From: Alphaproteobacteria bacterium
GTDB taxonomy: Bacteria; Pseudomonadota; Alphaproteobacteria; UBA2966
NCBI GenBank assembly: GCA_018654745.1
Contig: JABILA010000120.1
Location: forward strand, 1-64,000
Direction: 5' to 3'
Length of the DNA stretch: 64,000 nt
A program made the position numbers and the translations under genes. Positions 29,371 to 40,900 of this stretch are shown one piece after another. The number at the start of each line of letters is the position of its first letter. The first letter of the stretch is position 1. A model generated the notes under the pieces. The model did not search any database. It saw only the letters and a program-made list of their open reading frames with translations, and was not told the origin of the DNA.

Positions 29371-30342
29371 TCACATCACTGTTGAGGTAAACTTGTCCAT
29401 CAAATAAGGCCCGGATTTTACGGGTGGGTATTTTGGCGCATCGCCAGGTGGCAGACACGTGGGCAAACAAACAATATCTGCATGCCAGTTCGGTTGATGA
29501 AAAAATGCAATCGACATACGACGGGATGATGCACCAGCGTTGAGCGGTGGTGTCACCACCCGGTGCAAGGTCGAAACCCAACGGTCATTTGTCCAGCGCG
29601 CCATCAGGTCCCCGATATTGATAATGAATGTCTCTGGGATCACCGGGGCATCAATCCATTCGCCTGAGCGCGCCTGGACTTGCAAACCACCTGGCGTGTC
29701 GTGGGGTAGCAATATTGTCAGGCTGCCATAGTCACTGTGTGCACCTGCCCGTAACTGCCCTTCAATTGGTGGATTTTCCAAAGCCGGGTAGTGATTGGCA
29801 CGACAAGCCGAGATCGGTTCGTTGATCATGGGCTCAAAGAAGCTCTCGGGCAGATCAAGGGCAATTGCAAACAAACGCATCAAGCGACGCGCCAGCGCGT
29901 CCATGGCCCCGACATAGGCTTCAAATGCAGGCCGAAGGCTCGACGGATTATCCGGCCACAAGTTCGGCGCATAAACAAATCTCGCCTCTTGTTCCTCCAA
30001 CACCCGATCCGGTCGGTGCAATGGGCCTACTGCGAAGCCCTCCTTCAAATCGGGTGGACTTTCTTCGCCAAGTGATCTGGACAATGTCTCGTTTGATAGA
30101 GGCCCATATCCGTACGGGTAACCAGGTTGGGGAAGTGCTACGGCCATACGTTCTGACAGGGGCTGATCAAAAAAGTTCAGGTTCTGTTGCCAACAGTCCG
30201 AGATGATTTGTTCGGATATACCGTGATTGGATATCACCAGAAACCCGATGTCCTGACACGCCGTGTCGATGAGGGCTGCAATACCGCGATCAGCTGAAGA
30301 ATTATCCAGGCCGCCAAGATCGATAACAGGAATATGAGTCAT
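29371..30342 (-). CDS. 2-oxoglutarate/Fe(II) oxygenase, isopenicillin N synthase-like
   Basis: A 323-residue non-heme iron oxygenase. The N-terminal DIOX_N domain begins IPVIDLGGL and contains GFLVISNHGISEQ. The core holds the iron ligands His202 and Asp204 (AHSDYGSLTIL) and His260 (STLHRVV), with the 2-oxoglutarate-type Arg275-x-Ser277 in RRMSIAF. The substrate cannot be predicted; relatives act on small amino-acid- or purine-derived molecules. It is the only minus-strand gene in this stretch, convergent with DUF1467 with a seven-base gap, and interrupts the usual DUF1467-proS order. Confidence 0.9.
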   Translation of the reverse strand: MTHIPVIDLGGLDNSSADRGIAALIDTACQDIGFLVISNHGISEQIISDCWQQNLNFFDQPLSERMAVALPQPGYPYGYGPLSNETLSRSLGEESPPDLKEGFAVGPLHRPDRVLEEQEARFVYAPNLWPDNPSSLRPAFEAYVGAMDALARRLMRLFAIALDLPESFFEPMINEPISACRANHYPALENPPIEGQLRAGAHSDYGSLTILLPHDTPGGLQVQARSGEWIDAPVIPETFIINIGDLMARWTNDRWVSTLHRVVTPPLNAGASSRRMSIAFFHQPNWHADIVCLPTCLPPGDAPKYPPVKSGPYLMDKFTSTVM

Positions 30343-30754
30343 CTATACCGAACCCTTTTGGGGAATGAGCGACCATTGTGAATAGAGCTTTTCCGGGTTT
30401 AACGGAAACGCAGCCTTGCCTTTAATTCAAGGTGTGCGCCAAATTTTAATGCAGAAGCGATTCAGTTTAAATCGGAATCGCCCTGGCTGTCTGAAAAGAG
30501 AAGGGGGCCAAAACGAAAGCAAGGTCCCGAAGGACCTTGCTATTGCGCCCCTGAGAAGCGCGCCTCCCCGAAACTTTCCTTGCGATGCTGTAAGGCGTCG
30601 CGAATTGGTCCGGATTATTATTATTTTTTCTTGGACGCGGATGTTACGACAATGTTTTTGTGGCGTCATCCAAAATATTCGAAATTAGGGAAGAATTTTG
30701 CTTTTTTTTTGTGTGAATACGACTTTTTAAGCATTTCGAGCTAAAAACTGGATC
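30343..30754. other. Intergenic region with RNA-like structure
   Basis: This 412-base gap lies between the divergent oxygenase and exported-protein genes. Two overlapping opposite-strand ORFs in the track (30416-30688 and 30427-30669) are basic, unlike known proteins, and cover a strongly foldable stretch, so I do not call them. The foldable element 30505-30630 is listed separately. T-rich runs follow at 30615-30629 and near 30700. Confidence 0.5.
30505..30630 (+). ncRNA. Candidate structured RNA (small RNA or leader element)
   Basis: A closing helix GGGCCAA (30505-30511) / TTGGTCC (30605-30611) encloses a perfect 9-bp hairpin GCAAGGTCC-CGAA-GGACCTTGC (30519-30540), a GC-rich middle, and a 7-bp hairpin GCGATGC/GCGTCGC (30582-30601). 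A T-rich tail follows (30615-30629). The closing helix and the last hairpin each contain a pair that is G-U on the plus strand but A-C on the minus strand, which favours a plus-strand RNA. It matches no RNA family that I recognise. It could be a stand-alone small RNA or a leader of the exported-protein gene 125 bases downstream. Confidence 0.35.
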
Positions 30755-31192
30755 ATGACTTACATAAGATTTGCACTAATTGCCCTTGGATGCCTGATTT
30801 CGCTGTCGGCGACAAATGTCTACGCCGATGAAACACGCATCGTAATTTCCGATAAGGACTGCAAGCGATTGTTGCTCAAGCAAGCGTCCAAAAGCGCAGA
30901 CTATGTGCCAGGTGTTGACGTCAAAGGCCGCAAAGTGAAATCAGCGGACTTGCCGGGGTCGAACAAAATTGCGATTCCAGACGAACTCAGCTTCGATATC
31001 AGTCCCAAGATTTATCAGATGCTGGGCACCACGCCGCCAACAGGCCTTGAAGACACTGCGGTCACGGTCGGTACAGTTACCGTCAAAAAAAGTGGTGGCA
31101 TTTACTTTAACGGCAAACGTCTGAATTCCCGCACCCGAAAAGAACTGACAAAATTGTGCAAGCAAATGCGCGATAAAGCCGCCAGTAAATAA
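30755..31192 (+). CDS. Uncharacterised exported protein (145 aa)
   Basis: The N-terminus is a clear signal peptide (hydrophobic FALIALGCLISLSA, cleavage near VYA-DE, residue 24-25). The mature part has VVISDKDC-like openings (IVISDKDCKRLL), YVPGVDVKGRKVKSADL, and a segment VGTVTVKKSGGIYFNGKRL. I recall similar sequences annotated as hypothetical in other alphaproteobacteria, but no function. Two Cys residues remain in the mature protein (in DKDCK and LCKQM) and could form a disulfide. It stands between the RNA-like element and proS. Confidence 0.75.
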   Translation: MTYIRFALIALGCLISLSATNVYADETRIVISDKDCKRLLLKQASKSADYVPGVDVKGRKVKSADLPGSNKIAIPDELSFDISPKIYQMLGTTPPTGLEDTAVTVGTVTVKKSGGIYFNGKRLNSRTRKELTKLCKQMRDKAASK

Positions 31193-40756: not shown

Positions 40757-40900
40757 CCTCGCGCACACATTTTGTGGCGTATAAACCCTCACGCGAGGAT
40801 TGGATACCCGGATTAAAAGCCCCGGGATGTCCCTCCGGTGTCCGAAATCTTTCGGATCACACTCTCGCGGCGGATTAACCGGAAAAGGATAATTGCAGTT
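40757..40900 (+). promoter_or_regulatory. Structured rpsB leader
   Basis: Three helices can form in the roughly 140-base leader: CCTCGCG (40757-40763) / CGCGAGG (40792-40798) enclosing CACA/TGTG, then CCCGG/CCGGG (40807-40826), then TCCGAAA/TTTCGGA (40841-40856). The ribosome binding site GGAAAAGGA follows. In E. coli, protein S2 represses rpsB-tsf through the mRNA leader; whether this leader does the same is inference. Confidence 0.4.

Follow-up and report, generated by a model that had tools for sequence, protein, structure and literature searches.

An intrinsic terminator on the minus strand upstream of a 2OG-Fe(II) oxygenase gene, and a possible attenuated leader, in two sister species of Alphaproteobacteria

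Transcription attenuators and the leaders of terminator-type riboswitches share a simple layout: a leader co-oriented with its gene ends in an intrinsic terminator, and a segment further upstream is able to pair with the 5' arm of that terminator. Two described RNAs also come close to the element studied here. Atu_C8 (RF02502), an alphaproteobacterial trans-encoded small RNA, resembles it in size, in its 3' terminator and in a weak end-to-end alignment in both species that carry the element, while 6S RNA (RF00013) is likewise an intergenic alphaproteobacterial RNA of similar length. Our element lies at positions 30505-30630 of the window, by which we mean the whole 64,000-nucleotide stretch of contig JABILA010000120.1 that was analysed. 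An Rfam scan of the window and of the homologue in a sister species, at gathering and permissive thresholds, gave no family at threshold in the region, which bears out the statement of the sequence-only reading that no known RNA family could be recognised. Atu_C8 scored 16.2 bits in the window and 20.3 bits in the sister species, far below its gathering score of 50 bits; these two matches represent one homologous site and are not independent, and the alignment in the window consists mostly of two GC-rich hairpins including the terminator. 6S RNA, for which a single locus per genome is usual, is absent here, and the genome has its own copy elsewhere (G000:C85:24332-24489, 51.9 bits). Further along the window, positions 40788-40896 match the rpsB RNA family RF01815 with 40.6 bits against a gathering score of 40. 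Sub-threshold matches to the S15 leader occur on the minus strand at 30669-30721 (12.5 bits) and at the equivalent place in the sister species (L002:757-808, 17.6 bits); they fall in a promoter region that is rich in A and distant from any recorded rpsO, and are probably due to chance.

The element lies between two divergent genes:
29371-30342, minus strand: 2OG-Fe(II) oxygenase gene, identified by Pfam, downstream of the terminator described below and the putative regulated gene
30755-31192, plus strand: gene for a small secreted protein, upstream of proS, an open reading frame with orthologues

The oxygenase matches the Pfam families DIOX_N (9.3e-25) and 2OG-FeII_Oxy (6.5e-22), and its closest solved structure is that of an ethylene/succinate-forming enzyme. 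The secreted protein has no match in Pfam or NCBIfam; of the 15 genomes of the order, 13 have an orthologue, which adjoins proS in those examined. Between the terminator and the oxygenase gene, at positions 30384-30486, a dispersed intergenic repeat some 100 bp long has been inserted, which carries a promoter-like match. It has two palindromic arms, one of the GCGTTTCCG...CGGAAACGC type and one of the GCGATTC...GAATCGC type, and resembles a MITE- or REP-like element; at least 10-12 copies are present in the window's genome (G000). The sister species (G001) has at least 11 copies and lacks the repeat at this locus.

The one homologue of the element is found in this sister species, at the equivalent locus (L002:602-722; 80% identity over 126 bases by BLAST), on a contig taken as JABIFY010000005.1 of a Saanich Inlet metagenome-assembled genome. 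Gene order is the same in both genomes: the element is flanked by the oxygenase gene and, across from it, by the secreted-protein gene and proS. The whole intergenic gap is 77% identical, an ordinary value among the promoter regions of this contig. In the other genomes of the order (15 genomes), the stretch was absent by both BLAST and covariance model; when other genera of the order were inspected, the orthologous gaps preceding their secreted-protein genes showed no visible counterpart. Searches of the class covered a sample of 385 genomes. They returned no homologue outside the genus, the weak matches being mostly plain terminators or coding sequence; the best weak BLAST match outside the genus (L050) lies inside ORFs, and L051 is listed likewise. 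The covariance search in alphaproteobacteria proposed in the sequence-only reading did not extend the family either, since a model of the whole stretch gave only weak matches outside the genus, of which the placeable ones were mostly terminators. A model of the 5' part without the terminator gave matches outside the genus at noise level for 385 genomes, and one of these lies within an ORF. Finally, an 18-mer from the invariant block described below had 11 matches in 84,980 genomes: one (L062) is the sister species' contig, the one other alphaproteobacterial match (L064) was rejected as lying inside mnmE, and the remaining 9, from unrelated phyla or bacteria of unspecified group, were treated as chance-level. 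The comparison of structures thus rests on two related sequences, and covariation amounts to one compensatory pair.

The sequence-only reading had proposed an undescribed structured RNA on the plus strand, in which a helix closes around two hairpins in front of a T-rich tail. Its building blocks are largely present in the window. GCAAGG (30519-30524), its two possible partners CCTTGC (30535-30540 and 30578-30583), and GGACC (30532-30536 on the plus strand) with its GGTCC partners are all where they were placed, and the perfect hairpin with a CGAA loop on the plus strand, described as 9 bp, spans 30518-30541 and reaches 10 bp with its outer A-U pair. The closing helix (GGGCCAA/TTGGTCC), the second hairpin (~30580-30604) and the T-rich tail (30612-30630) can likewise be seen, although no hairpin directly precedes the tail on that strand. 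Judged from the window alone, the plus-strand fold is strong, with -48.3 kcal/mol compared to -33.3 in shuffled sequences (z -4.2, equalled by none of 200 shuffles); the minus strand reaches -44.0 kcal/mol, with a z-score of -2.3. The sister species rejects this architecture. There, 5 of the 7 pairs of the closing helix are lost, so that the covariation named in advance as its support did not appear, and the second hairpin loses 4 of 10 pairs; the two helices, although present in the window, are therefore not a conserved structure. Both wobble pairs that had been cited in favour of the plus strand sit in these lost helices, and wobble pairs from a single sequence are in any case weak evidence for strand. 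Two independent substitutions in the sister species, read on the plus strand as T to C (terminator arm) and G to A (30607-30611), leave a U-G pair on the minus strand and a C-A mismatch on the plus strand, and the first hairpin acquires such a mismatch. Taken alone, this hairpin has an energy of -9.2 on the plus and -14.6 on the minus strand of the sister species. The whole region there folds to -40.5 kcal/mol on the minus strand vs -29.4 on the plus strand, and the two-species consensus energy is -32.6 vs -23.9; the minus-strand z-score of -1.9 is modest, like that in the window. Consensus scans of the window neighbourhood and of the sister species also gave no terminator on the plus strand. 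We thus consider a plus-strand three-way junction closed by GGGCCAA/TTGGTCC very improbable, and the comparison favours a minus-strand transcript that would end in an intrinsic terminator. A functional RNA without a match in Rfam at threshold is still probable, while the strand and architecture first given to it were wrong. A protein-coding reading was rejected, as no minus-strand small ORF is common to the two species and the alignment has gaps that break the frame.

Read in the minus orientation, the hairpin with the CGAA loop is of the C(UUCG)G kind and leads into TTTCGTTTT:
30518-30541, minus strand: intrinsic terminator hairpin AGCAAGGTCC-TTCG-GGACCTTGCT, 10 bp with a C(UUCG)G loop, found by consensus scan and in the sister species
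30510-30517, minus strand: T-rich termination tail TTCGTTTT (TTTTCGTTTA in the sister species), read from the sequence

The minus strand carries an intrinsic terminator, conserved in the sister species and co-oriented with the oxygenase gene at which it points: a GC-rich hairpin that passes without a gap into a T-rich tail, in the orientation of the transcript. In the consensus scan, 30541-30510 is the sole terminator-like site within 30300-30800. All 10 pairs are kept in the sister species, with one compensatory change from G-C to A-U and one change from U-A to U-G; row shuffling of the two-sequence alignment equalled this in 248 of 500 cases, so that chance cannot be rejected on this measure. 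The same scan did not list the terminator of the sister species, where the hairpin is equivalent and the tail, TTTTCGTTTA, presumably falls outside its strict T count. In full-length transcripts of both species the terminator is predicted to form with a probability near 1. Of the weak matches to the two-sequence model elsewhere in the class, those that could be assigned to a place mostly represent hairpins of the C(UUCG)G type or a similar one, which follow immediately on tRNAs (L077, L084) or genes (L076, L078 and L082, after long same-strand ORFs); this supports the hairpin here as a terminator, and at the same time warns that a terminator-type hairpin by itself carries no family signal.

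Upstream of the terminator, four further features can be proposed:
30543-30571, minus strand: invariant block (...TCGGGGAGGCGCGCTTCTCAGGGGCGCAA) of 29 nt, identical in both species, with a possible 7-bp hairpin at 30561-30545
30607-30611, minus strand: GGACC, candidate antiterminator strand, predicted to pair with GGTCC (30532-30536) in the terminator 5' arm
30620-30647, minus strand: putative promoter GTAACA-N16-AATAAT (GTAACA-N17-TATAAC in the sister species), suggested by consensus scan and alignment
30639-30671, strand unassigned: imperfect palindrome GGATGACGCCA...TGTCGTAACATCC, conserved in the sister species and possibly an operator

The promoter-like site matches 9 of 12 consensus positions in the window's genome, by a consensus that is not established for this bacterial group; at the same scan cut-off the equivalent site of the sister species gave no promoter, and its version was read from the alignment. 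From such a promoter, a transcript would start near 30612 and, ending in the T-tail (30510), have a length of ~100 nt. The palindrome, one arm of which is better matched in the sister species (TGGCGT in the alignment), sits in the divergent promoter region and overlaps the upstream part of the putative promoter. Within the invariant block, the hairpin has a predicted probability of 0.6-0.67 in the window's genome and ~0.3 in the sister species. The block belongs to the 30 longest stretches of identity in 43 kb, most of which are in genes; its identity is thus not extreme for this genome pair.

The pairing between GGACC and the terminator was examined in transcripts cut before the 3' arm of the terminator. 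In these, GGACC (30611-30607) is predicted to pair with GGUCC (30536-30532) with P ~1.0 in the window's genome, and GGAUC with the terminator arm with P 0.8-0.98 in the sister species, where a C-G pair has changed to U-G; on the plus strand, the same change would be a mismatch. The helix is only 5 bp long, and 17 of 400 column shuffles of the upstream part equalled it, so that a conserved antiterminator mutually exclusive with the terminator, as expected of an attenuator, is weakly supported in the two species. Of the alternative folds that the sequence-only reading had compared to riboswitches or attenuators, the GGACC/GGTCC competition thus recurs in both species in an antiterminator-like form on the minus strand. 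Neither a ligand-binding riboswitch nor a widespread family finds support.

We tentatively prefer, at close to an even chance, a minus-strand leader of ~100 nt in front of the oxygenase gene, comprising a terminator and, with weak support, an antiterminator. The putative promoter (~30647-30620), situated in the gap from which the secreted-protein and oxygenase genes diverge, would start transcription, and the first ~100 nt would fold as a leader whose 3' end is the terminator (30541-30510). Most transcription would stop there, and readthrough would yield the oxygenase mRNA; promoter, start site and readthrough are all parts that we infer. The early GGACC would act as antiterminator by holding the terminator 5' arm, and stabilisation of this enclosing helix would turn the oxygenase on. 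We speculate that the invariant block (30571-30543) could be the target of a stabilising ligand or protein, or else that events of translation or elongation could have this effect. A more specific version, a riboswitch of the ON type or a protein-controlled attenuator, restricted to the genus, in which the terminator 5' arm closes an aptamer and the invariant GGGGAGGCGCGCUUCUCAGGGGCGC block does the sensing, seems improbable to us. Against a leader of any kind stand the modest minus-strand z-scores, the 4% of column shuffles that equal the antiterminator, and the ordinary identity of the gap. The same weak antiterminator statistics and z-scores, and a gap identity such as the contig's other promoter regions also show, would fit an intergenic region that is conserved without any regulatory RNA, comprising a divergent promoter, an operator palindrome and a constitutive terminator insulating the oxygenase gene. 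This is rather unlikely, however, as both the 29-nt invariant block and the terminator fall past the putative promoter, within the transcribed part, which has no need of a DNA site.

A stand-alone small RNA of ~100 nt (~30612 to 30510), acting in trans from its own promoter and terminator with the oxygenase transcribed separately, is a real possibility, if a lesser one. Size, promoter-like site and terminator all fit, and the G-rich invariant block of 29 nt could serve as a pairing region. In the window, moreover, the 100-bp repeat places a promoter-like site between terminator and gene, so that the oxygenase may have its own promoter. In the sister species, however, the T-tail ends ~50 nt before the GTG start codon, which follows a putative ribosome-binding site (GAAGGG, read by eye); a consensus scan found no promoter-like site in this interval, and there is hardly room for one. 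Nor has the element been seen without the oxygenase gene downstream, in what are two genomes only. Weighing the promoterless ~50-nt interval of the sister species together with the promoter-like match in the repeat of the window, we rate the attenuated leader as somewhat more probable than the small RNA.

If the leader does control the gene, a regulatory RNA would be tied to an oxygenase that is uncharacterised and comes from uncultured marine Alphaproteobacteria, and the controlling signal would hint at the substrate of the enzyme. As the evidence stands, the locus adds one more likely terminator-ended regulatory RNA. Compared to transcription attenuators and terminator-type riboswitch leaders, it differs in an antiterminator of 5 bp, an occurrence in two genomes, the lack of an Rfam family, and its status as a candidate without an assigned ligand, protein or leader peptide. 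Most likely, we suggest, it is an ordinary bacterial control element, so far in two sister species only, and probably a modest regulatory RNA of a known kind.
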